A stretch of 64,000 nt of DNA from the NCBI RefSeq assembly GCF_019431355.1, contig NZ_CP080269.1:5839001-5903000 (forward strand). Direction: 5' to 3'. This DNA comes from Paenibacillus sp. R14(2021). Lineage in GTDB: Bacteria > Bacillota > Bacilli > Paenibacillales > Paenibacillaceae. Position 1 is the first letter of the stretch, and every line of letters begins with the position of its first letter. The notes beneath the pieces were generated by a model that was not told the DNA's origin, made no database searches, and was given only the letters and a program-made list of their open reading frames with translations. Position numbers and translations under genes: made by a program. Below, one piece after another: positions 879 through 17,250 of this stretch.

Positions 879-947
879 TTCATAACGTGGCTCTATTATA
901 GTTGGTTTGTAGCTACGAATCACCAAAAATATTGGAGGTAATGAAGA

Positions 948-1454
948 ATGAGAAAAAAGTTTATCACTGCAGCAATGACTCTAGGAGTAGCAACCGTTCT
1001 GGTTGCAGGAAACGGCGTTATGACGACATATGCTTCTTCAAATGCTGATGCACAAAAGGTGCAGGTCATTGGCAAATATCAGCAGCCCGATATTGCTGGC
1101 CCTGGCTCATTGCAGGGGTTTCAAATCAAAGATTTGCCGGTGAACGAAAAGGAAGCGGTTGTAAGTGCGGAGAAAGCGATTCAAGAAAAATTTAAGGTTT
1201 CATTAAGTGGCTTTAAAATTTCCTATGATTTGGGCACCCGAGTAGACAGGGAAGGAACGTTCTATTTTGTAACCTTTGTAGATCAAACATACAATTATTC
1301 CGACGCCGAACTCATCAAAGCGAAGCAGGATTTAAAGGCAGGTAAAGATATCGGCATCAAGCAGAACGATATTTACGTTGCATTTGTAAACGCCAAAACC
1401 GGGGAAATCGATTCAATTGAGAATAATCCAACGGCACCAAAAGGAGCTAATTAA
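948..1454 (+). CDS. Small exported protein of unknown function
   Basis: Predicted 168 residues with a clear Sec signal peptide: a basic start (MRKKF), a hydrophobic stretch to about residue 25 and a likely cut after the alanine of TTYA (residues 26-29). The mature part is mixed alpha/beta, rich in Lys and Asp, with a final segment (VAFVNAKTGEIDSI) that resembles the strand-turn-strand of PepSY-like small exported domains. That likeness is weak and I do not assign a family. The start is supported by GGAGGT 9-10 bases upstream. It lies 69 bases after the kinase and ends at a strong terminator, so it is a single gene or the last gene of the kinase transcript. Confidence 0.7.
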   Translation: MRKKFITAAMTLGVATVLVAGNGVMTTYASSNADAQKVQVIGKYQQPDIAGPGSLQGFQIKDLPVNEKEAVVSAEKAIQEKFKVSLSGFKISYDLGTRVDREGTFYFVTFVDQTYNYSDAELIKAKQDLKAGKDIGIKQNDIYVAFVNAKTGEIDSIENNPTAPKGAN

Positions 1455-1486
1455 ATCACATCATCCTTGTAGTTTTTTGAGGACAT

Positions 1487-1529
1487 GAAACCTTGGGTCG
1501 TATAAGATTATACGACCAGAGGTTTTTTA
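1487..1529 (+). terminator. Rho-independent terminator
   Basis: Inverted repeat GGTCGTATA / TATACGACC around a short loop, extended by AAACC / GGTTT arms, and followed by a T-run. It closes the exported-protein gene. Confidence 0.85.
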
Positions 1530-1713
1530 TTATAGGTAAAACAGTCTGTCTGATAAGGACTTACAGCAACAAAGAAAACGATGTTAGAGTAGCTTAGAAA
1601 AGGAATATGCACGCTTTGTTGCCCGAAAACTTGCCGTTAAAGACAGCGCGGTGAACCTTACCACAAGTAACGGCAAGTTAATGAAAGGAGTTGAAAAGTA
1701 AATATTGCTTGAA

Positions 1714-1922
1714 TAATGGCCGGGAACGCCATCGGTCCCATTCGGATGTTTAAATATTTGCTGCTCAAAGCGATTTCCGATCTGTCCGACATCGACATCG
1801 TGGAGCGTTCGCGATACGATTTGTCGTTCAAATATTTCTTGAACATGGCGCCGGAAGAACCGGTCATTGGCTCTAGGCGAGGCGCTTTTCTTGTTTTCAA
1901 AGACGAAAATTTGGAAGCATAA
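1714..1922 (+). pseudogene. IS1182-type transposase, N-terminal fragment
   Basis: An open stretch of about 68 codons reads like the N-terminal (DUF772/InsH-type) domain of IS1182/IS5-group transposases: FKYLLLKAISDLSDIDIVER followed by SRYDLSFKYFLNMAPEEPVI. After this it runs into unrelated codons and stops; the DDE catalytic domain is missing, as is the usual N-terminal start. I see no terminal inverted repeats nearby. It is a dead remnant showing that an insertion sequence once lay beside the sigK fragment that follows. Family recognition is from motif memory, not a search. Confidence 0.7.
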
Positions 1923-2069
1923 GCTTGCATGTGTTGCAAACTTATGGGTTAAGTTACACACACACAAATTAACTGATTGATGTCAAGAAGGTTTCCCGTC
2001 ACGGCAGAAAGACCATCGACCTCGCCGATTGGCTTGCCAACAAAAACGTATCCATTTTCTTGCATCGGG

Positions 2070-2397
2070 TTGGCAACGTTTGCGGCCCGTTGTATCAAGA
2101 ACGAAATACTTATGCATCTCCGATCGCTCAAGAAAACCCGCAAGGACGTGTCCTTGCACGATCCAATCGGTACGGATAAGGAAGGCAACGAAATTACGCT
2201 TTTCGACATTCTCGGCACGGAAGCCGACGATGTGGCGGATCGGGTTCAATTGAAGATCGAGAAAAGCAAGATCTATAAGAACTTAGACATTCTGGGAGAT
2301 TGCGAAGGAACTCGGGATATCACGGAGCTATGTGTCGCGCATCGAGAAACGGGCACTAATGAAGCTATACCATGAGTTTTATAAGGCGAAGAAGTGA
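2070..2397 (+). pseudogene. sigK: Broken 3' fragment of sporulation sigma factor sigma-K (copy 1)
   Basis: From LATFAARC onward the translation follows sigma-K closely ([31 protein letters not shown]). After KNLDIL about 70 bases are missing compared with the second copy at 12417-12929, and the frame shifts; the conserved ending ([20 protein letters not shown]) continues in another frame to a stop at 2395-2397. There is no N-terminal part: homology begins abruptly at 2070, after sequence I do not recognise. It cannot make a working sigma factor. Over the shared first 225 bases I count about 25 differences from copy 2 by eye, so the two are not a recent duplication. Confidence 0.85.
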
Positions 2398-2423
2398 AGC
2401 GTAACCTGAAGGTACGAGGAGCA

Positions 2424-2467
2424 AAAAGAGGCTGGGATCGTTCGAATACGAAATCCTCAGCCTCTTT
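2424..2467. terminator. Terminator hairpin, probably bidirectional
   Basis: AAAGAGGCTG ... CAGCCTCTTT inverted repeat with T-rich flank on one side and A-rich on the other. It separates the rightward sigK remnant from the leftward iclR gene and can serve both strands. Confidence 0.75.
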
Positions 2468-2482
2468 CTTATGAACGGGGAG

Positions 2483-3238
2483 TTACGGTTTATAACCTAA
2501 TTCTTGTGACAGTTCTAAAGCAGTCTGCTTTAATTTCAAAATAAAATCGGAATGTTCGGAAGTATCGAGAACATCATTCATCGACACCACCGTCAACGCG
2601 GCTAGGATCGACCCGTTTAGATCAAATACCGGACAGCTAACTGCCGTGATTCCTGGCACTAGTGTTCCCGACGTTACGGCAAAGCCCTTGCGTTTAACCG
2701 ACTCTAGCTCCTTAAGCAACGGTTCCTGCAGCAGATCTGTTTTGAGCTCGCTTGAAATGAGGGATTGCGTTTTATTTTTTGGCAAATAAGCGCTGAATAA
2801 TCTTCCGGGAGCACTTTCTGTCACGCTAACCCTAGAACCAACTTTGATTCCTAAATTGATGGCCCGGTTGCTTTGTTCCCATCTGAGAAAGAAGGGACCG
2901 CTTTCCCCCCAAATCGCGAGCGCCACGGTCTCATTTAGCGCTTCCCTGAGCTTTGTTATGTAAGGTATGCAAATGTCTTGGATATCAAGTTGTTCAGATG
3001 CTTTCAGCCCGAGATGAATCAACTCCGTGCCCAATGAATATTTGAGATCTTGGCTTTTTTGAAGAAATCCTATTTTTGTAAAGCTCGTCAAATATTTATG
3101 AAGCTTGCTCTTGGATATGCCGCACAAAAAGGATATTTCCGTTGCAGTCAGTGACTTTCTTTCCTCAGAAATCTTCTTTAGGATACCCAATCCCAATTCA
3201 ACAGACTGGATACCATGGCCCTTTGGTTCCGTTGCCAT
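2483..3238 (-). CDS. IclR-family transcriptional regulator
   Basis: 251 residues: an N-terminal winged helix-turn-helix (about 10-70; ATEISFLCGISKSKLHKYL) and a C-terminal IclR effector domain (about 80-245; PGRLFSAYLP and TSGTLVPGITAVSCPVFD are typical). IclR proteins commonly control uptake and breakdown of small organic or aromatic acids, including quinate/shikimate-type compounds, by binding palindromes in divergent promoters. I chose the ATG at 3238 because AAAGGTGG lies 6 bases upstream; a GTG three codons earlier lies inside that ribosome site. It follows the MFS gene by about 20 bases on the same strand, so the two are co-transcribed. It probably controls itself, the transporter and the divergent operon from 5191. 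Confidence 0.9.
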   Translation of the reverse strand: MATEPKGHGIQSVELGLGILKKISEERKSLTATEISFLCGISKSKLHKYLTSFTKIGFLQKSQDLKYSLGTELIHLGLKASEQLDIQDICIPYITKLREALNETVALAIWGESGPFFLRWEQSNRAINLGIKVGSRVSVTESAPGRLFSAYLPKNKTQSLISSELKTDLLQEPLLKELESVKRKGFAVTSGTLVPGITAVSCPVFDLNGSILAALTVVSMNDVLDTSEHSDFILKLKQTALELSQELGYKP

Positions 3239-3258
3239 ATAATCCACCTTTCCACGTA

Positions 3259-4722
3259 CTAGTGCGCCAATTCATGATCATGATGAGGCTTATGAGCCAG
3301 CTTATGACCTTTTCCAGTGAAATGGAGGCCAATAGACAAGCATGCAAGGACTGCCGCAGCCATGAAAGCGATGAAGAAAAGGTCATGATAAGTCATTAAG
3401 AGAGATAGAGATTGTTCTTTCAGGTTATCACCTGCCGTGCCTGACTGCACCCTATCGTTAAGGTTGTGTGAATAATCGAAGTTCAAATACCATCCAGCCA
3501 ATAATATTACTATAACGTTTGCTAAAAAGCGAATGAATTGAACAGCAGTCATTCGACTGACCAAGTCGGGCAATGGACCTCCTAGTGCGGCGGCCGTAAG
3601 ACCCGAGCCGACCGTGATTCCAAGACCGCTCGATAAGAGCGTCAAATTGACAGCCATCATTACAAACGAAGAAGAGTCGTTCAAATATAACCATTGAATG
3701 AGAACAATAGCAATCGCTGCCGATCCGATTAGGCCGAGGAGACCGGGGCCGAATTTGTCGTAGAGCAATGTGCAGATGATCGCTGATATGGCTACGCCAA
3801 TAAACATAAATAGCAGCAAGGACAAGAGCTGGTTGTTTGAATGGATATGTATGATTCCTTGGACCGCCGGCAGACTGAGCGCCATGACGACGTTGCTGAA
3901 TACGGCCTTTAGTATGCCAAGCAGCGGTTTGGGGTGCATAATCAACTTCAAGGCAATAACAGGGTGACTAACCTTGCGCTGCGCGATTATAAAAAGAATC
4001 AGTGTAACAAAGGCGCCTCCGATTACGGCCCAGAGATTGCCCGGAGAACCAAACCATTGCTCGAGATGGTTGAAGGCTGCCAAGGCAGCTACCGAACAAA
4101 TCACGATCAGCGTTATTCCTGCGTTATCCCAATGCAAATGCTTGTTCTTCGAATGGTGCTCGTTTCGCAGGAAAATAGAGTTCAAGATGAATGCAGCCAA
4201 TGCTAAAGCAAATCCCAAATAAAAAATCCATCTCCAGTCTTGATAAACGACAGCTATGTTTCCGATCAACAAACCTGTAATCGCCGCTCCGAAAAAACCG
4301 CCTACAAGTACGGATAAGGCAAGATTTCGCTTCTCGATTGGGAAGGAAAGCAGCAGCATGGGGACCATAATCATGAGCATCATGCCCGTGCCCATCCCTT
4401 GCAGAAATCTGCCTAAAGACATCCATTGCTCATTGACGGAGCATGCAGCCGAGAGCGAACCAATCATAAAGAGAATCATAGAAACAGAGTAAGTGACCCG
4501 CACGCCTAATTGATGACGAAGCAAGGGCCCTAGCGGAATGAACAACATAAGGGCGATGATGCCGATTAGAGTCGGGCTGAATATCGCGTTTTTGCCAAGA
4601 TGAAATGAATGCTGGATAAGGCTTTGGCTGGGAATTAAAGCGCTATTCAACATGAAACCCGGCCCAATGGCCAGAACGGTTAAGATCGCATTTTTCCAAT
4701 GTTTTTGTAAGTTCATGTTCAC
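3259..4722 (-). CDS. MFS transporter, DHA2-like multidrug/metabolite exporter
   Basis: 487 residues of mostly hydrophobic helices (about 14 membrane spans), with the MFS loop GPLLRHQLGVRVTYS after span 2 and a motif C-like segment after GRFLQGMGTGMM. This size and span count fit the DHA2 drug:H+ antiporter group more than 12-span sugar importers. A His-rich cytoplasmic tail (HKPHHDHELAH) ends the protein. The start has GGAGGA 8-10 bases upstream. It is the first gene of a leftward pair with the IclR regulator and is transcribed away from the CoA-enzyme operon, so it may export a product of that operon or import its precursor. The substrate cannot be read from sequence. Confidence 0.85.
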   Translation of the reverse strand: MNMNLQKHWKNAILTVLAIGPGFMLNSALIPSQSLIQHSFHLGKNAIFSPTLIGIIALMLFIPLGPLLRHQLGVRVTYSVSMILFMIGSLSAACSVNEQWMSLGRFLQGMGTGMMLMIMVPMLLLSFPIEKRNLALSVLVGGFFGAAITGLLIGNIAVVYQDWRWIFYLGFALALAAFILNSIFLRNEHHSKNKHLHWDNAGITLIVICSVAALAAFNHLEQWFGSPGNLWAVIGGAFVTLILFIIAQRKVSHPVIALKLIMHPKPLLGILKAVFSNVVMALSLPAVQGIIHIHSNNQLLSLLLFMFIGVAISAIICTLLYDKFGPGLLGLIGSAAIAIVLIQWLYLNDSSSFVMMAVNLTLLSSGLGITVGSGLTAAALGGPLPDLVSRMTAVQFIRFLANVIVILLAGWYLNFDYSHNLNDRVQSGTAGDNLKEQSLSLLMTYHDLFFIAFMAAAVLACLSIGLHFTGKGHKLAHKPHHDHELAH

Positions 4723-4767
4723 ATTCCTCCAAATTGTTCACTATTAAGAAACTTGGTATATCTATAG

Positions 4768-4797
4768 TTGACATCATATTACCATAAGATGCATAGT
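4768..4797 (+). promoter_or_regulatory. Candidate promoter of the CoA-enzyme operon
   Basis: TTGACA at 4768-4773 and CATAGT at 4792-4797, spacing 18, facing right. It would give a leader of roughly 390 bases before the first coding signal at 5191. The overlapping AT-rich, partly symmetric bases 4755-4767 could hold an IclR site shared with the leftward MFS promoter. No experimental support. Confidence 0.4.
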
Positions 4798-4804
4798 AAA
4801 AGCG

Positions 4805-5190
4805 TTGTTCACAATTATTTCATAATGGAGGGACATCAAAATGGAAAATTGCGGAATCTGATACTGACTGTCCGTTTGTGCATAATAGCTGCCTGGAAGC
4901 CAGTCTGCTGCATGAGCCGAACCACCGGATATTCTAAGGGGAAGCGGCGTTTTGTTCGTGTTCTTATCGTTTCATTTGTCCTCCGTCTCTAGAAAATCTC
5001 AAATGCGTTTAATAGACGTGGTCTATGGCCCCTATGAGATTTTGTAATTAGACGTATAGAAGACGAGGGGAATATAGTTGTTACTGAAAAAACAAACCAG
5101 AGCGCTAAGACGTGGGAGCGGTTAGGAACTGGAATCGGTATCCTACTAGGCAAGAAAATAAGACAAGCTCTGGTAGAAGGAGAGCTAAAG
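4805..5190 (+). other. Long leader before the operon, no convincing gene
   Basis: About 390 bases without a supported protein gene. The only notable structure is an inverted repeat AAAATCTCA (4992-5000) / TGAGATTTT (5035-5043) enclosing a smaller ATAGAC / GTCTAT repeat. From 5038 to 5235 one frame stays open through the end of the leader and into the small ORF at 5191, but I see no ATG or ribosome site to start it earlier. Confidence 0.4.
4992..5043. repeat. Nested inverted repeat in the operon leader
   Basis: Outer arms AAAATCTCA / TGAGATTTT, inner arms ATAGAC / GTCTAT. There is only a short TTTTG tail, so it is not a strong terminator for the rightward strand. It could be an operator, an attenuator, or the terminator of something lost. 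Confidence 0.5.
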
Positions 5191-5235
5191 ATGGAAGATC
5201 GCGAATTCATTACGAAGAAGGTGCCGGCACGATGA
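5191..5235 (+). CDS. Possible 14-residue leader peptide coupled to the EPSPS-like gene
   Basis: ATG at 5191 preceded by GAAGGAGA (5176-5183, spacing 7), the best ribosome site in this stretch. It codes for MEDREFITKKVPAR and stops at TGA 5233-5235, which overlaps the ATG of the next gene as ATGA. The following gene has only a weak ribosome site of its own, so translation of this peptide may deliver ribosomes to it. The peptide has no obvious regulatory codon run. It could instead be the tail of a degraded gene, because the frame is open back to 5038. Confidence 0.45.
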   Translation: MEDREFITKKVPAR

Positions 5236-6578
5236 AGAGATTGAAGATTTATCCGCATGGCAGCGAGGTCAAAGGAAGCATTATTGTTCCGCCGTCCAAG
5301 TACCATCTGCATCGGGCTTTGATCTTCGGCTCTCTTGCCGAAGGCTATACGTCGATTGTTGGAAAATCGGGTGCTCTTCACATTCTGGACACGCTTCATT
5401 CGCTTAAGGATTTTGGAATTGCCATTCAGGAGACGGAGAAAGGCTACCGGCTCAAAGGCGGCGCGTATCGTCCGGTGGACGGGCGCATCCGGGTCGGGAG
5501 CTCAGGCTCGACGCTTCAATTCATGCTCGGCCTAGGCAGTTTATCCAGTGGTCGGGCTCCAATCTATAACGGTCATAAAGCACTGCGGGAAAGGCCGATC
5601 AAGCCGCTGCTCGAGGCGCTTGGCACGATGGGCGTTCAGTGGCAAGCTGAACATCACAAGATGCCTGTGACCATCCGGCCTAGTACGGTACTTGGCGGTC
5701 ACATCCGCATACCAGGCACGCTCAGCCAGTGGATATCGGGGCTGCTTATTCTTGCGCCATTCGCAGAACAAGATACCGTCGTCGAGGCACTTCCTCCGCA
5801 TAATGAAATGACTTATGTTCACCTGACGATCGGGATGCTCCGCGAATTCGGCATCCAAGTGGAGGAATTGGCAGGCGGCACGATGTGGAGGGTACCGGCC
5901 AAGCAGCGATACATTCCCAGCATGATCGAAATCGAGCCCGACCTGTCGTCGGCAGCGTTCCTGCTCGCATTAGCTGCGTTATTTCCTTCTGACATCGTGC
6001 TGCAAGGCCTTGCGCATGCAGGCACGCATCCGGAAGGACAAATCATCGATATTATCCGACAATACGGCGTCAACCTCGCAATCGACGAGCAAGCGGGCGG
6101 CTTGCGTGCGCGCCGTACAGACGGCAAAGCCCCGCAACAAGTAACGATCGACATGCGGCATATCCCCGATCTCATTCCGGTCTTGTCCGTAGTCGCCGCG
6201 CTCGCGAGCGGTACGACCACCGTCCTGCAAAATATCGGGCCGGGCCGGATGAAGGAATCCAATCGCGTGAAAGCGATGCTGCAGTTGAACAAAATGGGGG
6301 CGCGCATCAAGGAAGTCGGAGACGACCTCATCATCGAGGGAGTCGGCCAGCTGACGGGCGGCGCTTCGATCTCGACGTACAACGACCATCGCGTGCAGAT
6401 GGCGTTTACGCTCGCTTCGCTGCGGGCAACAGGCAATCCGAGCGAACTGACGTTTCCGAATGCCTATCGAATATCGTATCCCGAATTCTTCGATCATTTA
6501 GCGCTTCTTGGAATCGATACCGGATTGCAGAATGACTCGGATGAGATACGGATCGCGGAGGAGGCGTCGAACAAATGA
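5232..6578 (+). CDS. Divergent EPSP-synthase-family protein (AroA-like)
   Basis: 448 residues with the two-domain EPSP synthase (enolpyruvyl transferase) pattern. Kept: catalytic-loop Lys23 and Arg28 in PPSKYHLHR, RERPIKP (119-125), DLSSAAF, a DIPDL-type Asp in HIPDLIP, MKESNR, and YNDHR near residue 397. Changed: the Ser after the catalytic Lys is Tyr24, and the normally near-invariant N-A/S-G-T-x-x-R loop reads GSSGSTLQF (89-97), losing the Asn and the Arg that contact substrate and PEP in known enzymes. It lies in an operon of CoA enzymes, not aro genes. It is probably not the housekeeping AroA but a relative acting on shikimate or a derivative. The ATG at 5232 overlaps the preceding stop, and its own stop overlaps the next start (ATGA). 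Confidence 0.85.
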   Translation: MKRLKIYPHGSEVKGSIIVPPSKYHLHRALIFGSLAEGYTSIVGKSGALHILDTLHSLKDFGIAIQETEKGYRLKGGAYRPVDGRIRVGSSGSTLQFMLGLGSLSSGRAPIYNGHKALRERPIKPLLEALGTMGVQWQAEHHKMPVTIRPSTVLGGHIRIPGTLSQWISGLLILAPFAEQDTVVEALPPHNEMTYVHLTIGMLREFGIQVEELAGGTMWRVPAKQRYIPSMIEIEPDLSSAAFLLALAALFPSDIVLQGLAHAGTHPEGQIIDIIRQYGVNLAIDEQAGGLRARRTDGKAPQQVTIDMRHIPDLIPVLSVVAALASGTTTVLQNIGPGRMKESNRVKAMLQLNKMGARIKEVGDDLIIEGVGQLTGGASISTYNDHRVQMAFTLASLRATGNPSELTFPNAYRISYPEFFDHLALLGIDTGLQNDSDEIRIAEEASNK

Positions 6579-8164
6579 TAACGACCCAGACATCAAGACA
6601 AGATCTTCTATTCCTTAACCGGCTTGCCTTAGCGAACCCGGAGAGCAGCGCGGTCGTGGACTTATCCGATGGCGCATCTCCGATTCACATCACTTACGGA
6701 GAGTTGAATACGCTATCGGATCGTGCCGCCCAAGGGCTGCTGGATCTCGGCGTGCAGGAAGGCGAGAATGTCACCTATCTATTGCCGAACCGCTGGGAGT
6801 TTGTCGTCTTTACGGCAGCGGTATTGAAAATTGGAGCGGTTGCATGTCCGATGCTGCCGGCGATGAGAGAACGGGAAATTCCGTTTGTCGTCGGACGCGC
6901 GAAGAGCAAGGTGCTCGTCATTCCGGATGAATACCGGAATTTCCGATACGGTCGGCTTATTCAAAAGATTCGTTCCGAAATGCCGGATTTGCGCCATGTC
7001 ATCACCATTGAAGCGAACGATCCCAAGGAATTAATGAGCTGCCTGGGCGGGCTGGCGAGCCGGGAGCCTGACAGGGAATGGATCGAGCGTCGTCGTCCAG
7101 CCCCGAACGCGCCTGCTCAATTGCTGTTCACGTCGGGAACGACGGGCGAGCCGAAAGGCGTTATCCATACGCATCAAACGCTTAGCGATGCGTTGGCTGC
7201 CCATACTGAGGTACTCGGGCTGACCGGGAAGGATACGATCTGGGTTCCGTCGCCGATGGGGCATCAGACCGGACTATTGTATGGCATGATGCTTGCGATG
7301 TACTTAGGCGCCAAGCAGGTGTGCCAGTCCGTGTGGGATGTCGAAACCGCCCGTTCGGCGATCGAGCAGCACGGTGCGACTTTCGTGCAGGCCGCAATGC
7401 CGTTCCTGGCGGATATCACCCATGAGGATCGGCCGCCGCAGGGATTGAAAATCTTCGTCGCGACAGGCGCTCCCGTCCCCCGCAAACTAGCGGAGGAAGC
7501 GCGGCAACGGCTGGACTGCAAAGTTGTCGGGGGCTGGGGTTCTACCGAAACGTGCATGATCAGCATCGGCTCGGTCAAGCCATACGATGACAACTCCTGG
7601 CGTAAGGACGGGAAGGTCATCCCGGGCAGACAGATGAAGGTCGTCGATGAGGAAGGCCGGATGCTCCCGCCGGGGAGAGAAGGATTATTCAAAGTCAGGA
7701 CGACAGCGATGTTTACCTCGTACTTGGATCATCCGGAATGGTACGAAGCAGCTGTTGACGAGGAAGGCTTCTTCAACACTGGCGACTTGGCCATTATCGA
7801 TGAACAGGGCCACTTGAATTTGACCGGTCGCGTGAAGGACATCATCAACCGGGGCGGATTGAAGATTCCGGTCTCCGAGATCGAGAATCTTCTGTACCGG
7901 ATGGAGGGAATCGGTGACGCGGCGGTCGTCGGCATGCCCGATGCTCGCTTGAATGAACGGATCTGCGCCTATGTGTCGCTGTCTAATCCAGAAAGCGAAT
8001 TGACGCTGGCCGACGTGACCGCTTATATGCAGGCCCAAGGCGTCACCAAGTCCTATTGGCCGGAAAGATTGGAAATTTTGCCGGAAATGCCGCGTACATC
8101 CACGGGCAAAATTCAAAAGTACGTGCTTAGGCAATTGATTTCGGACAAGCTGCAGGCTGAATAA
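6575..8164 (+). CDS. AMP-forming acyl-CoA ligase (cyclohexanecarboxylate/aryl-acid type)
   Basis: 529 residues of the ANL superfamily. The ATP-binding motif LLFTSGTTGEPKG is near 182-194, GGWGSTET near 318-325, the hinge Asp region FNTGDLAI near 400, TGRVKDIINRGG after it, and the catalytic Lys is in TSTGKIQK near 508. It activates a carboxylic acid through an acyl-adenylate to the CoA thioester. The general look is of medium-chain or alicyclic/aryl acid ligases such as cyclohexanecarboxylate-CoA ligase; the exact acid is inference from its neighbours. Its ATG overlaps the stop of the EPSPS-like gene by 4 bases, pointing to coupled translation. It probably charges shikimate or a dehydrated derivative so that later steps occur on CoA esters. 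Confidence 0.9.
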   Translation: MITTQTSRQDLLFLNRLALANPESSAVVDLSDGASPIHITYGELNTLSDRAAQGLLDLGVQEGENVTYLLPNRWEFVVFTAAVLKIGAVACPMLPAMREREIPFVVGRAKSKVLVIPDEYRNFRYGRLIQKIRSEMPDLRHVITIEANDPKELMSCLGGLASREPDREWIERRRPAPNAPAQLLFTSGTTGEPKGVIHTHQTLSDALAAHTEVLGLTGKDTIWVPSPMGHQTGLLYGMMLAMYLGAKQVCQSVWDVETARSAIEQHGATFVQAAMPFLADITHEDRPPQGLKIFVATGAPVPRKLAEEARQRLDCKVVGGWGSTETCMISIGSVKPYDDNSWRKDGKVIPGRQMKVVDEEGRMLPPGREGLFKVRTTAMFTSYLDHPEWYEAAVDEEGFFNTGDLAIIDEQGHLNLTGRVKDIINRGGLKIPVSEIENLLYRMEGIGDAAVVGMPDARLNERICAYVSLSNPESELTLADVTAYMQAQGVTKSYWPERLEILPEMPRTSTGKIQKYVLRQLISDKLQAE

Positions 8165-8194
8165 CGGTCCTATCTTAGAGGGAGACGATACGAG

Positions 8195-9328
8195 ATGAAT
8201 GATAGCCAATTTCAACAGTTAAAAGCGGAGATCCGATCTTATGTGGACGGACGACTAAGGGAGCTGACACAGCGCATCGAAGAAACCGGGCAATGCGGTC
8301 CGGACGTCTGGCAGGAGCTTCGCGAGCGAGGCTATCTCCGATTGGCAGCGCCGGAAGCCTATGGGGGCTATGGCCTCAGCTTTACGCAGTATCTACAGCT
8401 GCTCGAAATGTTCTCGGAGTCGCACGGTTCGATCCGAATGATCGTTCACGTCATCAACGGCATTTGGCGGCCCGTCGATTTCCTTGCAAGCGAGGCGCAG
8501 CGGGAACGATTCGTGAAGCCGCTCGTGCGTGGGGAAATCACCGCTGCCTTCGCGCTGACGGAGCCGAATGCGGGCTCGGGAGCCGACATCGAAACGTCTG
8601 CCCATAAGGAAGGCGATACCTATGTGCTGAATGGGGAAAAGTGGCTCATTACGTTCGGGGATACGGCCGATTATTTGCTGATTTATGCCCGTATGGAAGG
8701 TACGGAGGGTTATGAAGGAACGTTGGCATTGCTTGTTCCTCGAACGGCCGAGGGCGTGGAAATTCGCGAGATGTCTTCGACCTTAGGGCTGACGGGAACG
8801 GGACATGCCCATATCGTCTTGCATGATGCGCGCGTTCCCGCGGATCATCTGCTCGGCAATGTCGGAGAAGGACTGGCCGGCGCGCTGAACGGGTTTCTGG
8901 ATCCAAGCCGGATCTGCGTCGGTATGACCTGCGTCGGTCTAGCGCAGCGCGCGTTCGATATCGCTGTCGAACGAAGCCGAGAGCGCGTCACGTTCGGTAA
9001 AGCGCTTAGCCAGCGCCAAGTGGTTCAGACGTGGATCGCCGAGATGGCGACGGACATTGAAGCGGCTCGTCAGTTGGTCATGTACGCGGGAAGGCTGAAG
9101 GACGAGGGAACGCTGACGCCTCCGCCGGCGTCGATGTCGAAGCTCTACGCGCTCGAAATGCTGCAGCGCGTTACGGATAAGGCGCAGCAGATTTGGGGGG
9201 GCATCGGTTACTTCAAAGGCTATGAGATCGAACGGATTTACCGCGACGCGCGCGCCCAGAAGTTTGAGGAAGGCACGGCGGAAATTCAGAAAGCGGTCAT
9301 AGCCAAGCATGTGCTGGCAGAAAGGTGA
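8195..9328 (+). CDS. Acyl-CoA dehydrogenase
   Basis: 377 residues, a normal length for the FAD acyl-CoA dehydrogenase family. It has the N-terminal helical domain, then FALTEPNAGSGAD (signature 1), the beta domain with GEKWLITFGDTADY, and the C-terminal helical domain with RVTFGKALSQRQVVQ and IWGGIGYFKGYEIER. The catalytic base is the Glu of EEGTAEIQ near residue 360. The start has AGGGAGA upstream of ATG 8195. It would remove or, with a suitable electron partner, add hydrogens alpha/beta to a CoA thioester; in this operon it likely acts on a ring substrate. No electron-transfer flavoprotein gene is present, so it must use one encoded elsewhere. Confidence 0.92.
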   Translation: MNDSQFQQLKAEIRSYVDGRLRELTQRIEETGQCGPDVWQELRERGYLRLAAPEAYGGYGLSFTQYLQLLEMFSESHGSIRMIVHVINGIWRPVDFLASEAQRERFVKPLVRGEITAAFALTEPNAGSGADIETSAHKEGDTYVLNGEKWLITFGDTADYLLIYARMEGTEGYEGTLALLVPRTAEGVEIREMSSTLGLTGTGHAHIVLHDARVPADHLLGNVGEGLAGALNGFLDPSRICVGMTCVGLAQRAFDIAVERSRERVTFGKALSQRQVVQTWIAEMATDIEAARQLVMYAGRLKDEGTLTPPPASMSKLYALEMLQRVTDKAQQIWGGIGYFKGYEIERIYRDARAQKFEEGTAEIQKAVIAKHVLAER

Positions 9329-9336
9329 ATGGGATC

Positions 9337-11319
9337 ATGAAACGATCATTACTGCTGGAGTCGGGACACATCGGTTCGCTTCATCTGAAGCACCGTATCC
9401 TGATGGGCGCCATGCATCTGGGTATCGAAGGCCGGCGGGAAACGCTGCCGCAGCTCATCTCCTTCTATCGGGAACGGGCCAGCGGCGGGGCCGAGCTCAT
9501 GATTACCGGCAATGTCGCCGTTCTTCCCGAAGGCGGGGGAACCGGCATGTTTTGCTTGACGGAGCCGGACCATCGGAAGCAGCTGGAAGAACTTGCGGCG
9601 GCGGTTCGGCAAACCGGCGGCCGCTTGGCGCTCCAGCTTGCCCATCGAGGGCGTTACGCCAGCAGCAAGGAGACTGGCCTTTTTCCATGGGCGCCAAGCC
9701 CGATCGCTTCTCGCCTGACGAAGGAAGTGCCGGCGGAGATGACAAGATCGGATATTATGCGCCTCAGAGACGCGTTCAGGGATGGTGCGGCGTTTGCCGC
9801 CGGCGCAGGTTTCGCCGCGATCGAGATCATGGGTTCCGAAGGCTATTTACTGAATGAATTCGTCTCGCCGCTGACCAATCGACGAAGCGATGAATACGGT
9901 CAAGACAGCGAAGGGCGCATGAAGCTGTGCCTTGACATTATCGCAGACATCCGAAGGCGGATCGGGGACGAGTTCCCGGTCATCTACCGCATCTCCGGGG
10001 ACGATTACATGGAAGGAAGCACAACGCGCGAGGAGACGCTGGAGCTGGCGCGGCGTTTGGAGCGTTGCGGCGTCGATGCGCTAAATGTCGGGATCGGTTG
10101 GCATGAATCCGCGATTCCGACGGTTGGCGCGAACGTGCCGCCGGGTGCTTTCGCATCGGTCGCCGCGAACATTCGCGGCGTTGTCACGATTCCTGTCATC
10201 GGAGCGAACCGGATCCATACGCCTGAGGTCGCGGAGCGGCTGCTTCTCCGCGGCGACCTGGATTTCGTCGCCCCGGCGCGCCCGTGGCTGGCGGATCCCT
10301 CTTTCGCGCGCAAGATCGCCGAAGGAGATCTTGCAGGCATGAACTTATGCGTTTCCTGCAATCAGGTCTGCTTGGATCACACCCTCGGGCATCCTCCCAA
10401 GCCGGTCGGCTGCCTTGTAAATCCGCGGACGGGTCATGAAGCGGAGGCTGTTCCGCCTTCTGCCGAGCTGAAGCGAATCGCGGTCGTCGGCGGCGGCGTC
10501 GCGGGGCTGCAAGCGGCATTAACGAGCGCGGAGCGCGGACACCAAGTAACCTTGTATGAGGAGACCGACCAGCTCGGCGGGCAGTTTCTGCTTGCATCCC
10601 GTATTCCCGGCAAAGATCAATTTCGCGAAACGATTCGTTATTTCCGTGTTGCGCTGCAGCGGCTCGGCGCAGATATTCGGATGGGAACCATGCCTACGCC
10701 GCAGATGCTGGAAGCGTTCGATCATGTCATCCTTGCGTCCGGCGTCCGTCCATTCGTGCCTGAAACGCTCGAAGGCGCCGATCTTCCGCATGTGTGCACG
10801 TATGCTGAGCTGCTCGCGGGAGCACGGCCGTTCGGCAAGAAAATCGCCGTTGTCGGAGGCGGAGGGATCGGCAGCGACGTCGCCCATTATTTGGCTGAGC
10901 GGACAAGCTTGCGGCCGGAAGAGACAGCTTTTTTCGCAGAGCGAGGCTTCGAGGCGCAGGCTCCGGTCGCACCTGTAATCACGCTTGTGTCTCGTTCGGA
11001 CAAAGCAGCGAAAGGCGTGGGTCCTACTTCACGATGGGTGCTGCTAGGAGAATTGAAGCGCCGCGGCGTACGGGTGCTGAAAGGTTATCGCTGCACAGCC
11101 ATCACGGCGGAGGGCATTTGGGTTGATAATGGAGAAGAGAAGCTGTTCGTGGAAGCCGATCAGGTTATACTCTGCATGGGCCAGCGCTCCAACATCGCGG
11201 CGGGCAATTCATCCTTCGCGCACGAGGCATTCGACGCGGTCGGCGGAGCGGCTGATTCGGCGGAACTTAATGCCGCAAGGGCGATTCGGCAAGCTTATGA
11301 GGCTGCTATCAGGTTGTAG
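9337..11319 (+). CDS. 2,4-dienoyl-CoA reductase-like flavoprotein (Old Yellow Enzyme/FadH family)
   Basis: 660 residues with the full FadH/BaiCD layout: an FMN TIM barrel (about 1-350), four cysteines for a 4Fe-4S cluster (CVSCNQVC near 338-345 and PVGCLVNP shortly after), an FAD Rossmann motif (VVGGGVAGLQAA near 384) and an NAD(P)H Rossmann motif (VVGGGGIGSD near 505). It passes hydride from NAD(P)H through FAD, Fe-S and FMN to conjugated enoyl-CoA double bonds. I prefer ATG 9337, which has AAAGGTG 9 bases upstream; a GTG at 9325 overlaps the previous stop (GTGA). In a shikimate-to-cyclohexane route this enzyme is well suited to reduce cyclohexadienyl-CoA intermediates. Confidence 0.9.
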   Translation: MKRSLLLESGHIGSLHLKHRILMGAMHLGIEGRRETLPQLISFYRERASGGAELMITGNVAVLPEGGGTGMFCLTEPDHRKQLEELAAAVRQTGGRLALQLAHRGRYASSKETGLFPWAPSPIASRLTKEVPAEMTRSDIMRLRDAFRDGAAFAAGAGFAAIEIMGSEGYLLNEFVSPLTNRRSDEYGQDSEGRMKLCLDIIADIRRRIGDEFPVIYRISGDDYMEGSTTREETLELARRLERCGVDALNVGIGWHESAIPTVGANVPPGAFASVAANIRGVVTIPVIGANRIHTPEVAERLLLRGDLDFVAPARPWLADPSFARKIAEGDLAGMNLCVSCNQVCLDHTLGHPPKPVGCLVNPRTGHEAEAVPPSAELKRIAVVGGGVAGLQAALTSAERGHQVTLYEETDQLGGQFLLASRIPGKDQFRETIRYFRVALQRLGADIRMGTMPTPQMLEAFDHVILASGVRPFVPETLEGADLPHVCTYAELLAGARPFGKKIAVVGGGGIGSDVAHYLAERTSLRPEETAFFAERGFEAQAPVAPVITLVSRSDKAAKGVGPTSRWVLLGELKRRGVRVLKGYRCTAITAEGIWVDNGEEKLFVEADQVILCMGQRSNIAAGNSSFAHEAFDAVGGAADSAELNAARAIRQAYEAAIRL

Positions 11320-11353
11320 AATTCGATGATATTCAGAAAGGGATGTGGGGGCA

Positions 11354-12136
11354 TTGTCAGCTTTGTTTCTTGGAAAAAAAGTACTAATCACCGGAAGCTC
11401 GCGAGGAATCGGACGAGCAACGGCGCTTGCATTCGCGAAGGAAGGCGCGGATGTGGCGATTCATTACCGCCGGGATGCGGAAGCCGCCCAAGCGACGGCG
11501 AATGAAGCGCGTGCGCTTGGCGTACAGGCACTCGTCTGCAAAGCCGAGTTGGAATCGCCGGCTGAGATTGACGGGATGTTCGACGAGATTACGAATACTT
11601 GGGGAGCGCTTGACGTCTTTATGGCGAACGCTGCGGCTACGGCGTTCAAGCCCGTAATGGAAACGAAGGATTACCATATCGACCGCACGTATCAAGTCGT
11701 TGTCAAGAGCGTTTTGCACGCTGTGCAGCGTGCGGTACCGCTAATGGAAGGAAGAGCGGGCCGCATATTGACGGTATCCAGTCTGGGAAGCCAGTTCGCG
11801 CTCCCCAATTATTCCACCATCGGTTCTGCCAAGTCGGCATTGGAGTCGCTGACGAGGTATTTGGCGGCGGAGCTGGGTCCGAAGGGTATCACGGCCAACG
11901 TTATTTCGCCCGGTGTGGTAGAGACGGATTCCGTGCGGTTTTACGCCAAGGATACCTTCGATACCTTTAAAACAAATGTGATCAGCCGCACGCCGCTCGG
12001 ACGGCTGACGCAGCCGGAAGATGTAGCCCATGTCGCTCTCTTCCTAGCTGCAGAGGCGGCGGGCTTCATTACGGGGCAGGTGCTTGGGGTCGACGGCGGG
12101 TTGACCTTGATCGCTTATGGTCCGGACGGACGCTGA
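11354..12136 (+). CDS. FabL-like SDR, probable enoyl-CoA reductase (ChcA-like candidate)
   Basis: About 260 residues with an SDR Rossmann fold: GSSRGIGRA near 13-21, NAAATAF in place of NNAG, VSSLGS, and SPGVVETD. The active-site spacing is Tyr153-x6-Lys160 (YSTIGSAK), the pattern of FabL-type enoyl reductases, not the usual Tyr-x3-Lys of ketoreductases. The following LESLTRYLAAEL also matches FabL. It therefore probably reduces an enoyl thioester, perhaps the last 1-cyclohexenylcarbonyl-CoA step. The start is uncertain: TTG 11354 has AAAGGGA 11 bases upstream, while GTG 11345 sits almost on that ribosome site. It is the last gene of the operon. Confidence 0.85.
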   Translation: MSALFLGKKVLITGSSRGIGRATALAFAKEGADVAIHYRRDAEAAQATANEARALGVQALVCKAELESPAEIDGMFDEITNTWGALDVFMANAAATAFKPVMETKDYHIDRTYQVVVKSVLHAVQRAVPLMEGRAGRILTVSSLGSQFALPNYSTIGSAKSALESLTRYLAAELGPKGITANVISPGVVETDSVRFYAKDTFDTFKTNVISRTPLGRLTQPEDVAHVALFLAAEAAGFITGQVLGVDGGLTLIAYGPDGR

Positions 12137-12353
12137 TGACAAACCCCGCATCGAAATCCGATCCGATGGTAGGGGATTACGCGTTGAACTTCTTGGTCAT
12201 TAAGTATAGGATTGTGTAAGATGCTAAAGGAATTGATCAATAGAGACCTGAGTTTTCTTGCGTTGAGCAAGTCAATGAATAGCAATGAAGCAACTACTAG
12301 AGCGATAAAGCATCAATCTGTTTCTTTTGCAAGTTAGGAATCATGTTCAAGAA

Positions 12354-12387
12354 TAAACCGATTACTGTTATTGCGGTAGTCGGTTTA
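12354..12387 (+). terminator. Hairpin ending the CoA-enzyme operon
   Basis: TAAACCGATTACTG / CGGTAGTCGGTTTA with a 6-base loop (a 14-base stem with wobble pairs). It is followed by an A/T-rich tract without a clean T-run, so termination may be partial. It lies between the SDR gene and the second sigK fragment. Confidence 0.6.
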
Positions 12388-12416
12388 GTTAATATTAATT
12401 TACATCGAGTTGTGTT

Positions 12417-12929
12417 CACATCGTCAAAAAATTCGACAATACAGGCGAAGATCTCGAGGATCTGATCTCCATCGGGACCATCGGATTAATCAAGGCGATC
12501 GAAAGCTTCCAGACCGGCAAAGGCACGAAATTGGCAACGTTTGCAGCTCGCTGCATCGAGAATGAAATACTTATGCATCTCAGGTCGCTGAAGAAAACCC
12601 GCAAGGACGTATCCTTGCACGATCCGATCGGCACGGACAAAGAAGGCAATGAAATCACGCTCATCGACATTCTCGGCACGGAAGCTGACGATGTGGCGGA
12701 TCGGGTTCAATTGAAGATCGAGAAGAGCAAGATTTACAAGAACTTAGACATTTTGGATGACCGGGAGAAGGAGGTCGTCGTAGGGCGGTTTGGACTCATC
12801 ACTGGTGGAGAAGAGCGGACACAGCGGGAAATAGCGAAAGAGCTGGGTATTTCGCGTAGCTATGTTTCGAGGATCGAGAAGCGGGCACTGATGAAGCTAT
12901 ACCATGAGTTCTATAAAGCTAAGAAATGA
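12417..12929 (+). pseudogene. sigK: 3' fragment of sigma factor sigma-K (copy 2), no N-terminus
   Basis: Starting abruptly at codons [16 protein letters not shown], the frame runs unbroken through sigma regions 2 to 4 ([57 protein letters not shown]) and ends at TGA 12927-12929. This is about 170 codons matching sigma-K. The N-terminal pro-sequence and start of region 1/2 are absent; upstream bases AATTTACATCGAGTTGTG may be a decayed trace of the preceding codons, but there is a frame break and no ribosome site. It is therefore a 5'-truncated copy, not expressible as it stands. In Bacillus, sigK is split by the skin element inside the IENE codons; here both copies contain the same 3' half. 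Confidence 0.85.
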
Positions 12930-13171
12930 GAGAATGTTTAATATGTTAATGATAAGTTGAATAGCTAAACTGGATGAAGCTATGTGCGCCCGATCCGCAG
13001 CTTTGTTACGATAGCATAAGATAAAAAATAATGATGAGGTGTATCTCGCACCAAAGTCCGCGGTTTCCGTGGATTTTTGCTATGTTGCGCCTAACCTACT
13101 GAAAATAACCCTGCTCTGCGAACTACTATCTGAGTATAGAAGCAGGATTAGAAGAGCAGGTGGGATAGGTA

Positions 13172-15226
13172 ATGGAGAGTAAAACAGATGAGAAAACGAA
13201 GAAAAGGCGGCATGGATGGACGAAAGCAATTGTCATGCTCGCTGTTGCAGGCGTACTCTTCGTTATTGTAGGATGGGGCGCTCTTCGTGTGATGGTGCAT
13301 AGGCAAGATATTTCACTGTTAGCCAAATCGCTCCCGGCAGAAACGGTCATCATGGACGATCAAGGGAAGCAAGCAAGCCGGATTGCACTTCATACGACGA
13401 TTGAACCGGTGAGCTATGAATCGTTGCCAAAACAACTCGTTGATGCTGTGGTTGCCGTAGAGGATAAACGATTCTTCGAGCATCACGGCACAGATTTATG
13501 GGGAATTGGACGGGCGCTGTTTACGAATATCTCGAACGGCAAGACTGTCGAAGGGGCGAGCACCATCACGCAGCAGCTTGCTAAGAACGTATTCCTGTCG
13601 CAGAAGCGGACATGGTCGCGTAAGTGGAATGAAGCGCTGCTCGCCAAGAAGATCGAAGAGACGTATACGAAGCAGCAAATCATGGAGATGTACCTCAATC
13701 AGATTTATTTTGGCGAAGGTGCATGGGGCATTAAGCGGGCGGCAAGCACGTACTTCGGGAAGAGCGTCGATAAGCTGACGTTGTCGGAAGCGGCTCTGCT
13801 CGCAGGAATGATTCGCGCGCCATCGGCGCTGACACCCTATAAGCATATGAAAGAGGCTCTAGAACGCCGTAATGTTGTACTCCAGCTTATGAGAGACCAA
13901 GGTAAAATCAGCCCAAGCGCCTATGAAACGGCAAGCAAGCTGCCGATTCGGCTTGACAGTGCCAAACCGAGCCGTGGTGAGGGGGTCAAATATCCTTACT
14001 TTGTCGATCAGATCATCCGAGAAGCTTCGGAGCAGTACGGGTTATCCGAAAATGATGTGCTGCATGGCGGATTGCGGATCTACACGACGCTTGATACGAA
14101 GATGCAGCAGGCAGCGGAACGCGTCTATGCCGATGCTTCCGTGTTCCCAAACAGCCGCGCAGATCAGCTCATTCAGAGCGGCGCCGTTCTTCTAGATCCG
14201 CGCGATGGGGGTATCAAGGCGCTGATCGGCGGCAGAGGAAGCCAGCCTTTCCGCGGATTCAACCGCGCGGTTCAGCTGAAGCGCCAGCCGGGCTCGACGA
14301 TGAAGCCGATCTCCGTGTACACGCCAGCCTTCGAACGCGGGTACGCACCGAGCGATACGCTCATGGACGAGCCGGTCAGCTTCGGCAGTTATGCGCCGAA
14401 GAACGCGGGCGGCGGGTACCACGGCGAGGTGTCGATCTACGAGGCGATCGTTCATTCTTACAACATTCCGGCAGTAGAACTGCTGAATGAGATGGGCATT
14501 GATGCCGGCATGGAGGCGGCAGGGCGGTTCGGGATCAAGCTATCGGATGCGGACCGGACGCTCGGTCTAGCGCTTGGCGGGCTGCAAGAAGGCGTCTCGC
14601 CGTTAGAGATGGCGGATGCGTTCAGCACGTTCGCAAACGATGGCGGGCGTTTCCCTGCACATGCCATCGTTCGCATCGAATCGGCGGATGGGGAGCTGCT
14701 GGCTGAGGCACCTCAACTGTCCGCGATAACGGTAACGGAACCAGCTGTGGCGAGGACGATGACATCCATGCTTGAAGGCGTCGTGCAAGAAGGAACAGGC
14801 GAAGACGCAGCTATAGAAGGCCGCCCAATTGCCGGCAAGACGGGCACGACTGAAATGCCGGGTACTGGCGGGAAAGGCATCAAGGACAATTGGTTCGTCG
14901 GGTACACGCCTCAGCTAGTCGGTGCGGTATGGCTCGGTTATGATCATACGGATTCTACGCACTATTTAACGACGACTTCCAAGGCAGCGGCCGCGGTTTT
15001 CCATGCGCTTATGAGCGATGCGATGAAAAACGAACCTGTGCTTCATTTTCCGCCGGCTCCTAGTCTGACGAAGAAGAATAAAGCAGTGGACGATAAGGAC
15101 GAAGAGGAGAAGCCGCGTGAGGAGAAGCCGCATGGCCCCAAGAAGCCGAAGAATGAACACAAGCAGCATCACGGAGATGGGGGGAAGCATGGGCACGGCA
15201 AGAAAAAAGGGAAGCATGAGGATTAA
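13172..15226 (+). CDS. Class A penicillin-binding protein (PBP1A type)
   Basis: 684 residues: a short basic cytoplasmic N-terminus, a membrane anchor at about 18-42, a GT51 transglycosylase (catalytic Glu in VEDKRFFEHHGTD, then EGASTITQQLAKN) and a transpeptidase with Ser in GSTMKPI, SYN in HSYNIPA and KTGTTE. It polymerises and crosslinks peptidoglycan outside the membrane. The last 60 residues form a low-complexity Lys/His/Asp/Glu tail (KKPKNEHKQHHGDGGKHGHG), which is likely disordered and possibly metal- or wall-binding. The gene is alone, with a strong terminator behind it. Ribosome site: AGGTGGGATAGG upstream of ATG 13172. Confidence 0.93.
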   Translation: MESKTDEKTKKRRHGWTKAIVMLAVAGVLFVIVGWGALRVMVHRQDISLLAKSLPAETVIMDDQGKQASRIALHTTIEPVSYESLPKQLVDAVVAVEDKRFFEHHGTDLWGIGRALFTNISNGKTVEGASTITQQLAKNVFLSQKRTWSRKWNEALLAKKIEETYTKQQIMEMYLNQIYFGEGAWGIKRAASTYFGKSVDKLTLSEAALLAGMIRAPSALTPYKHMKEALERRNVVLQLMRDQGKISPSAYETASKLPIRLDSAKPSRGEGVKYPYFVDQIIREASEQYGLSENDVLHGGLRIYTTLDTKMQQAAERVYADASVFPNSRADQLIQSGAVLLDPRDGGIKALIGGRGSQPFRGFNRAVQLKRQPGSTMKPISVYTPAFERGYAPSDTLMDEPVSFGSYAPKNAGGGYHGEVSIYEAIVHSYNIPAVELLNEMGIDAGMEAAGRFGIKLSDADRTLGLALGGLQEGVSPLEMADAFSTFANDGGRFPAHAIVRIESADGELLAEAPQLSAITVTEPAVARTMTSMLEGVVQEGTGEDAAIEGRPIAGKTGTTEMPGTGGKGIKDNWFVGYTPQLVGAVWLGYDHTDSTHYLTTTSKAAAAVFHALMSDAMKNEPVLHFPPAPSLTKKNKAVDDKDEEEKPREEKPHGPKKPKNEHKQHHGDGGKHGHGKKKGKHED

Positions 15227-15270
15227 TTCCTAAGGCGAAGAAGTGATCGACCAAAGCATGCAATTCCAGA

Positions 15271-15310
15271 AAAGGGAATGAACGGTGTTAATGCGTTCAT
15301 TCCCTTTTTA
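15271..15310 (+). terminator. Rho-independent terminator of the PBP gene
   Basis: AAAGGGAATGAAC / GTTCATTCCCTTT stem followed by TTTTTA. Confidence 0.9.
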
Positions 15311-15571
15311 TATTTTATTGCGCGATGAAAGGATAGAGATTTAATTTTTTAACGAACTGGCAGGAAAGTAAAGTGTGAATATGGAATATTATAGGCGGCT
15401 TGATATAATCATTAGGTTTTAAAGCAATAGAAATGGGAATATTTTATATCTCAACGATAAGGAACGAGAATTCAGCTCTGCTTCTTTCGGCAGGACAAAA
15501 ATGAAAACCCTTACATCCAGATCTGGCATGCAGGTTATGTGGTATCCAATTTGGAAAGGGGCATGAGGAGC
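15311..15571 (+). other. AT-rich intergenic region before the orphan regulator
   Basis: About 260 bases with no gene. TATAAT at 15404-15409 (GATATAATC) could be a -10 box but has no good -35 partner. I see nothing else. Confidence 0.4.
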
Positions 15572-17137
15572 GTGAAGCCAAAAGTTCTGATCGTCGACGA
15601 TGAGCCGTTGATTTGCAAGGGATTGAGGTTAACCATTCCCTGGGAGGAGTTGGGGGCTGAGGTGATCGGGGAGGCGTACAACGGGCTGCAAGCGCTCAAG
15701 CTGATGCAAGCGACGCCAGCCGATCTTGTGCTGACCGATGTGAGCATGCAGCAGATGAACGGGCTCGAGCTCGTACAGCAGCTTCATCGCGACGGTTCCT
15801 CAGCCAAGTTCGTCATGCTCAGCGACGATAAAGAATTCGACTATGTCCGCACTGCCATGCAGTACGGGGTGAAAAACTATTTGCTGAAACCGATCGATGT
15901 TGACGAGCTGACGGTCCTGCTTACCGGACTGATCGGAGAAATTGCCCGGGAAGCCGACGAACGGGCGGCGCGTAAGCTGGAAGCCTACTACCATTACCTT
16001 GTAGCCGAGATGATCGAGCATACGGGAGCAGCTGCGGCGCATTTGCCAGACCCGGATGTCCCTTGCTATTTCATTGTCAGCCGTATGTCGGATTATTGCC
16101 GCCTGGCAGCAGCGCCGGAGGAGCCGGACCGTCGACGGCTGCGCGCCGATTGGAAGACGTGGATGGAACAACGCATGCTTCAAGCCGGTGCGCCGAGCGT
16201 GTCGATTTTTCTACAGCGCAATGTACTGCTCACGGTCACTTTCGCCGAAGGTGCTAACGTAGAGGGATTACAATCTTGCCTAGGCGCGGGCATGGCAGTA
16301 ATGGAGGTGCAGGGCGGGTGCCAGGTGGAATGGGTCGCCTCCGAAGAGGCTCAGTCCTTTGCCGCTTTGAAGGAGGCGTTACCGCAGCTGGTTCGGCTGC
16401 TGCATTGCGGGAAGCAAGGCAAGGTGCAGCTGGACGGCGGGCAACTCGGTACAGTCGATACGGCCGCATTCCGTGACTATCCCAGGGAGACGGAAAAAGA
16501 ATTGCTGGACTTCCTGTTCCAGCATAAGGAGGAACAGATGAGAGCAACGGTGTGCAAGCTGTTCAATCTGTTTCAGAGCGAGAGAGCGAGTCTGCAGGAG
16601 TCGCTGCAGGTGTGCCATGAAATGGTCATGATGGTGAAACGCCGATTTCGCGAAACGGCTGCACTGAAGCAAATGGCGGCCCGGCTGCCGGAATTGAACC
16701 ATGGGGATATCGGCATGTACAACTCCTTCGAAGCGATTGAGCAGTTCTTCGTCGAGACGTTGACAACCGCGCTGCATTTGCTCCGAACGGCCAATCGCGG
16801 GAAAAACCGCTGGATTATCGAGCGTATCACCTCCTATATACGGAAGAATTACGTGCACGAGCTTAAAGCATCCGAAATTGCGGACATGGTGCGGATTACC
16901 CCGAACTACTTTAGCTCGATCTTCAAGCAGGAGACCGGCAAGTCATTCAACGCGTATGTCAACGAAGTGCGGATCGAGAAGGCCAAGGAGCTGCTGCTGG
17001 CGACGCCGGAGCAGGTCGGTGCAATCGCGCTCGCCGTGGGCTACAAGGAATATAAATATTTTGCCAACTTGTTCAAAAAGCAGTGCGGCATCATTCCATC
17101 GGAATACCGAGAAAAGAACTGGGACGAACTCGTTTAA
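15572..17137 (+). CDS. YesN-type response regulator with AraC output domain (orphan)
   Basis: 521 residues: a receiver domain at about 1-125 (VLIVDDEPLICKGL, phospho-acceptor Asp in VLTDVSMQQMNG near 56, Lys in YLLKPIDVDEL), a variable middle region, and an AraC-type double helix-turn-helix at about 415-515 (NYFSSIFKQETGKSFNAYVN, YKYFANLFKKQCGI). GTG 15572 is preferred because AAAGGGG lies 10 bases upstream; ATG 15563 is too close to it. Unlike the pair at 48306-51069, no histidine kinase gene adjoins it. It precedes a sugar ABC importer operon by 113 bases and probably activates it. Confidence 0.9.
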   Translation: MKPKVLIVDDEPLICKGLRLTIPWEELGAEVIGEAYNGLQALKLMQATPADLVLTDVSMQQMNGLELVQQLHRDGSSAKFVMLSDDKEFDYVRTAMQYGVKNYLLKPIDVDELTVLLTGLIGEIAREADERAARKLEAYYHYLVAEMIEHTGAAAAHLPDPDVPCYFIVSRMSDYCRLAAAPEEPDRRRLRADWKTWMEQRMLQAGAPSVSIFLQRNVLLTVTFAEGANVEGLQSCLGAGMAVMEVQGGCQVEWVASEEAQSFAALKEALPQLVRLLHCGKQGKVQLDGGQLGTVDTAAFRDYPRETEKELLDFLFQHKEEQMRATVCKLFNLFQSERASLQESLQVCHEMVMMVKRRFRETAALKQMAARLPELNHGDIGMYNSFEAIEQFFVETLTTALHLLRTANRGKNRWIIERITSYIRKNYVHELKASEIADMVRITPNYFSSIFKQETGKSFNAYVNEVRIEKAKELLLATPEQVGAIALAVGYKEYKYFANLFKKQCGIIPSEYREKNWDELV

Positions 17138-17197
17138 TTTTTCGGATATAATCGTAATTCTATGGATACCGAAAATTCCCCCTGCTATTTACAATTA

Positions 17198-17211
17198 AGA
17201 AAGCGGTTACA
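17198..17211. promoter_or_regulatory. cre-like catabolite control site
   Basis: AGAAAGCGGTTACA matches the CcpA consensus TGWNANCGNTNWCA at all but the first base. It lies 40 bases before the substrate-binding protein gene and suggests glucose repression of this importer operon. Confidence 0.55.
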
Positions 17212-17250
17212 TTCTAAACCGACTTCTATTGGTGTAGGGGGATTTTCCCA

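Follow-up and report, generated by a model that had tools for sequence, protein, structure and literature searches.

Alicyclobacillus is the classical producer of omega-cyclohexyl lipids, and the genus is known above all for fatty acids with a cyclohexyl tip. In A. acidocaldarius DSM 446, omega-cyclohexane C17:0 was reported at about 51% and omega-cyclohexane C19:0 at 33% by a study which cites De Rosa 1972 for the origin of these acids from shikimate (PMC3035248). Sulfobacillus is another group with omega-alicyclic lipids, and its genomes are reported to carry genes for such lipids and a shikimate source (PMC4378227). In the phoslactomycin locus of Streptomyces, genes for a ligase (plmJK), a CoA dehydrogenase (plmL), a cyclohexenylcarbonyl-CoA reductase (ChcA) and an NADH:FMN oxidoreductase (plmM) lie next to one another (PMC5852498), and S. 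avermitilis could be made to synthesise doramectin with a gene cassette for cyclohexanecarboxyl-CoA (CHC-CoA) and a phoslactomycin loading module (PMC6164871). In the opposite direction, ring degradation by the bad-ali set involves AliA, AliB, BadK, BadH and BadI (PMC9795900).

Here we compare with these systems a five-gene operon of Paenibacillus sp. R14(2021), located in a stretch of 64,000 nucleotides (NZ_CP080269.1, positions 5,839,001 to 5,903,000) that we call the window. The genes are named J, K, L, M and ChcA, and positions given without a contig are those of the window.

Results

Organization of the operon and its flanks

Reading of the ORFs showed five co-directional, tightly spaced ORFs on the + strand between positions 5232 and 12136 (Table 1), which agrees with the tight five-gene operon of the preliminary description. 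The start that it had assigned to the operon, 5191, was abandoned, the ATG at this position being in a different frame from J and the common start of the orthologues being 5232. Genes J and K overlap by 4 bp, as do L and M, while gaps of 30 bp and 25 bp separate K from L and M from ChcA; translation of M could begin at GTG 9325 or at ATG 9337. The families first proposed for all five proteins were borne out by Pfam and NCBIfam profile matches. M combines the Oxidored_FMN and Pyr_redox_2 domains and ChcA contains adh_short_C2, with FabL (NF005975) as its best NCBIfam match; neither of the two reaches a curated equivalog cut-off. As described earlier, inspection by eye of the ORFs at positions 1-18000 revealed no aro gene, enoyl-CoA hydratase or thiolase, and no dedicated dehydratase is visible.

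Table 1. Features of the operon and of its divergent upstream neighbours in the window.
Feature	Position	Strand	Basis of assignment
J, EPSP-synthase-like, 448 aa	5232..6578	+	PF00275 E=3e-70; own clade; EPSPS fold
K, AMP-forming acyl-CoA ligase, 529 aa	6575..8164	+	AMP-binding; best NCBIfam model TIGR03208
L, acyl-CoA dehydrogenase-family, 377 aa	8195..9328	+	best matches AcrC, CarC 6fah
M, 2,4-dienoyl-CoA reductase-type flavoenzyme (FMN, 4Fe-4S, FAD), 664 aa	9325..11319	+	PDB 1ps9 E=6e-140
ChcA-like SDR, FabL type, 263 aa, GTG start	11345..12136	+	FabL top in NCBIfam; 3oic top in PDB
IclR-family regulator, divergent	2483..3247	-	PF01614/PF09339
DHA2-type MFS transporter, divergent	3259..4722	-	PF07690
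Divergent intergenic region, presumed promoter region	4723..5231	.	position only

The best NCBIfam match of the IclR protein is the PcaR/PobR family, under the cut-off. An IclR gene of 90% identity also adjoins copy 1 of P. glycinis, and no IclR homologue was found beside the second copy of the cassette in the same genome (see below). No MFS homologue was found beside that second copy either, nor beside the other Paenibacillaceae copies except P. glycinis copy 1, where the alignment (L016 10783-11265) is partial and covers query residues 322-482 only; this MFS gene may be a remnant. The IclR protein is a possible regulator of the window copy, with which the MFS transporter is loosely associated.

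Two partial copies of a sporulation sigma-factor gene, assigned by eye to a sigK-like family, bracket the block formed by IclR, MFS and the cassette, at positions 2070-2397 and 12531-12929. Their segments are 90% and 83% identical, and the C-terminal half of the downstream copy is still in frame. A short transposase-like fragment, also recognised by eye, lies at about 1718-1922, upstream of the first sigK-like remnant.

Conservation of the cassette

A second complete cassette was found in the same genome (C1 3,146,439-3,153,344), with 77-93% protein identity between the copies and a G+C content of 62% vs 58% for the window copy. The dN/dS ratio between the two copies was ~0.05-0.14, which indicates purifying selection. 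Within our sample of 149 Paenibacillaceae genomes, J was present in six and M in the same six, with eight cassettes each, and the order J-K-L-M-ChcA was kept in all eight. The distances between J sequences correlated with the corresponding distances for K, L, M and ChcA, with Spearman coefficients of 0.86-0.96.

A scan of named genomes for J with exact peptide patterns, the results of which are therefore a lower bound, added at least further Paenibacillus and Cohnella species, Sporolactobacillus sp. THM7-7, two Alicyclobacillus genomes and two MAGs. The gene order in Sporolactobacillus sp. THM7-7 is identical to that of the Paenibacillaceae cassettes, and one of the two MAGs (L032) has J, K and L only, on the stretch available. 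The recurrence of the order in Paenibacillaceae and Sporolactobacillus, with copies under purifying selection, shows that the set did not arise by chance, and the five genes form a real unit. Since the flanks vary from locus to locus, the five genes seem to have travelled together as one block. The gene-neighbourhood survey suggested in the preliminary description thus found the EPSPS-like gene conserved beside the CoA-ester genes.

Comparison with the Alicyclobacillus locus

A single locus of A. acidocaldarius DSM 446 contains orthologues of K, L, M and ChcA, with identities of 55, 58, 54 and 58%, respectively, and with the catalytic residues conserved. It differs from the Paenibacillus operon in that its genes are divergent, J is missing, and a DAHP synthase gene and a set made of a second ligase, a second dehydrogenase and a Zn-ADH are present. 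Across the 59 Alicyclobacillales genomes M is either clearly present (24 genomes) or clearly absent, and the neighbourhoods of 21 of the 24 were read. In all 21 loci K and L are oriented opposite to M and ChcA, and in 19 of them a DAHP synthase gene ends the K-L side, adjoining (J)-K-L. DAHP synthase is the entry enzyme of the shikimate pathway; the call was made with NF006421 in two representatives (465 and 450 bits, cut-off 335). Besides these loci, in a Clostridiales MAG (L033) the five genes are succeeded within a few kb by two further genes, one plsX-like (below cut-off) and the other fabF (above cut-off).

Taken together with the lipids of Alicyclobacillus, these neighbourhoods strongly indicate that the substrates of K, L, M and ChcA are ring acids derived from shikimate, although the function of the Alicyclobacillus locus is itself deduced from context and chemistry. 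On the strength of the A. acidocaldarius orthology we assign the operon to the shikimate-derived CHC-CoA kind.

J is present in only five of the 59 Alicyclobacillales genomes; most Alicyclobacillus loci do without it, so that J is not needed everywhere. Two genomes without J (A. acidocaldarius DSM 446, G154, and G155) have only three EPSPS-family genes each. The J-bearing lineages are scattered across the K and M trees, a distribution which points to repeated loss of J, with regain possible. A second ligase, a second dehydrogenase and a Zn-ADH were located within 20 kb in 16 of 16 loci lacking J vs one of the five J-bearing genomes. Shared descent may explain much of this pattern, and the idea of the Zn-ADH as a strict substitute for J is weakened, since that one genome, J-bearing A. 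mengziensis (L134), also has a Zn-ADH nearby.

Comparison with the Streptomyces cassettes

AnsJ of the ansatrienin cassette is also EPSPS-like. By published gene names, not by sequence identity, ansJ-M/chcA and plmJK-L-chcA-M have a set of predicted functions equal to that of the Paenibacillus operon. Unlike these cassettes, the operon stands alone in Bacillota with no PKS recognised nearby, has separate genes for J and K and runs in the order J-K-L-M-ChcA. In tblastn searches of plasmids with J and L, the two Streptomyces matches to J that were examined were rejected as unrelated aroA-like genes, one near arsenic genes and the other beside asnB and an adenylation-domain gene. An aroA-like gene on a Streptomyces plasmid (L037 14944-16254) is accompanied by a gpmI-annotated gene near arsenic-resistance genes and possibly belongs to an organoarsenic natural-product locus.

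The EPSPS-like protein J

J passed the cut-off of TIGR01356 (aroA) marginally, with 291.6 bits against 287.25; with only 4 bits to spare, automatic annotation would probably name it aroA. The EPSPS family of the genome consists of the canonical AroA at C1:1775232, three MurA-type genes and the two J genes, and J forms a clade of its own, separate from AroA. Its predicted structure has the EPSPS fold (pLDDT 72, which is moderate, the model being used for the fold only).

Active-site residues were compared in E. coli numbering, leaving out two MurA-like rows (A. acidocaldarius 2818k and L103) that look misread. We take S23, S169, S197 and N336 to be shikimate-3-phosphate (S3P)-binding sites, K22, G96, R124, Q171, R344, R386 and K411 to form the PEP site, and D313 and E341 to be the catalytic residues of EPSPS. 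J resembles AroA in its fold, in most of the PEP-site residues (K22, G96, R124, Q171, R344 and R386) and in D313 and E341. It differs from AroA in the S3P contacts, with S23Y, S169L and S197E in 14 of 14 J sequences and N336 replaced in all 14 (by P in all but one, which has H). The K411I substitution of the PEP site is likewise found in 14 of 14, as are D49H and R100Q; isoleucine at 411 is also seen in some sampled AroA-like sequences. Some of the true AroAs in the sample vary at positions 197 and 336 and none at 169. The loss of the S3P contacts suggests that the usual binding of shikimate-3-phosphate is unlikely for J.

Signatures of K, L, M and ChcA

The best model for K, the cyclohexanecarboxylate-CoA ligase TIGR03208, gave 450 bits, below its cut-off of 792. 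The best matches of L are reductive members of its family, the acryloyl-CoA reductase AcrC in NCBIfam and the caffeyl-CoA reductase CarC (6fah) in PDB, and E358/E359 of its FEEGT motif are kept in 25 of 25 sequences; judged from these features, L probably acts as a reductase. M keeps the 4Fe-4S cysteines (C342/C345/C349/C363) and the catalytic Tyr and His (Y174 and H260) of the FadH 2,4-dienoyl-CoA reductase in 25/25 sequences, and ChcA keeps the catalytic and cofactor residues of the FabL enoyl reductase, with S146, Y156 and K163 (Y-x6-K spacing) in 25/25. What sets M and ChcA apart from FadH and FabL is their operon context. The signatures of the four proteins would suit a pathway in which the acid is activated and the ring dienoyl- and enoyl-CoA are then reduced step by step.

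Discussion

Our comparisons make it highly probable that the cassette turns shikimate or a near intermediate into CHC-CoA, most likely a fatty-acid starter for FabH. The preliminary description had read the operon as a route from shikimate to CHC-CoA, and our results support this reading as far as CHC-CoA, since the four genes from K to ChcA have their orthologues in an A. acidocaldarius locus that includes a DAHP synthase. Ring hydroxyls would be lost in alternation with reduction of the resulting double bonds: J would set up, or itself catalyse, the first elimination from the shikimate ring, K would form the CoA thioester, and L, M and ChcA would reduce successive dienoyl- and enoyl-CoA intermediates, ChcA carrying out the last alpha,beta-reduction to give CHC-CoA. 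We infer the order of these steps, the reaction of J and the final product in the organism. The genome has two FabH genes over the cut-off, and we give slightly better than even chances to the use of CHC-CoA by FabH as a starter for omega-cyclohexyl fatty acids in this organism.

For J, we tentatively consider a PEP-dependent enolpyruvyl transfer to unphosphorylated shikimate or to a later ring intermediate, in a pocket altered by S197E, S169L and N336P and with pyruvate as the leaving group, although as a specific mechanism this is improbable. Enolpyruvylation, and not a dehydratase, would then drive the dehydration, and the Alicyclobacillus strains lacking J would use another route, perhaps the set of second ligase, second dehydrogenase and Zn-ADH.

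A different end product is possible because no gene beside the Paenibacillaceae copies names a sink. The operon could make CHC-CoA itself or the CoA ester of a partly reduced or hydroxylated ring acid (cyclohexenecarboxyl-CoA, dihydroxycyclohexanecarboxyl-CoA) for a specialised metabolite and not for fatty acids, which we regard as unlikely while giving it appreciable weight. In Paenibacillaceae the copies are isolated, their contexts are unrelated, and we recognised neither shikimate-pathway nor fatty-acid genes next to any of them; a second copy would suit a specialised use. We also found no report of omega-cyclohexyl fatty acids in Paenibacillus in the open literature, which is weak evidence. 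Against a specialised product, the operon has every reductive enzyme of the A. acidocaldarius locus, with intact catalytic residues, and when the ORFs around the copies read were looked over by eye, none was recognised as a PKS or NRPS gene.

The catabolic alternative, an IclR-regulated and transporter-linked operon for the degradation of cyclohexanecarboxylate or a related acid, is very improbable. The divergent IclR, PcaR/PobR-like though below the cut-off, and the MFS transporter would suit an imported ring acid, as would the top ligase model of K, and the ligase and acyl-CoA dehydrogenase of bad-ali degradation belong to the same superfamilies as K and L. However, the IclR/MFS pair is missing from most of the other copies and recurs, with the partial MFS, only beside one P. 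glycinis copy; in Paenibacillaceae J and M always occur as a pair; and the bad-ali set has no EPSPS-like or dienoyl-reductase gene (PMC9795900) and no counterpart of J, M and ChcA. The absence from the genome of BadI, the ring-cleaving hydrolase, also makes ring catabolism unlikely; genome-wide, the only match to BadI was a crotonase that scored 90 bits against a cut-off of 467.6 and lies beside a carboxyltransferase-like ORF. That J is an ordinary second AroA beside four genes of an unrelated fatty-acid or xenobiotic-reduction set, as its narrow pass of the NCBIfam aroA cut-off could suggest, is scarcely credible given the canonical AroA elsewhere in the genome, the separate J clade with altered residues in all 14 members compared, and the way in which J distances parallel the distances for the other four genes of the cassette.

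With CHC-CoA retained as the preferred product, the operon would represent a compact, movable five-gene source of this CoA ester in Paenibacillaceae, and the comparison points out an orthologous locus in A. acidocaldarius that contains a DAHP synthase of its own. As a polyketide starter, for example in doramectin and phoslactomycin, CHC-CoA is of recognised value. Because J is patchily distributed and has an altered EPSPS active site, the first dehydration of shikimate, a step that has been unclear, becomes directly testable. In this organism, ring-tipped fatty acids or a related metabolite are the probable output of the operon.
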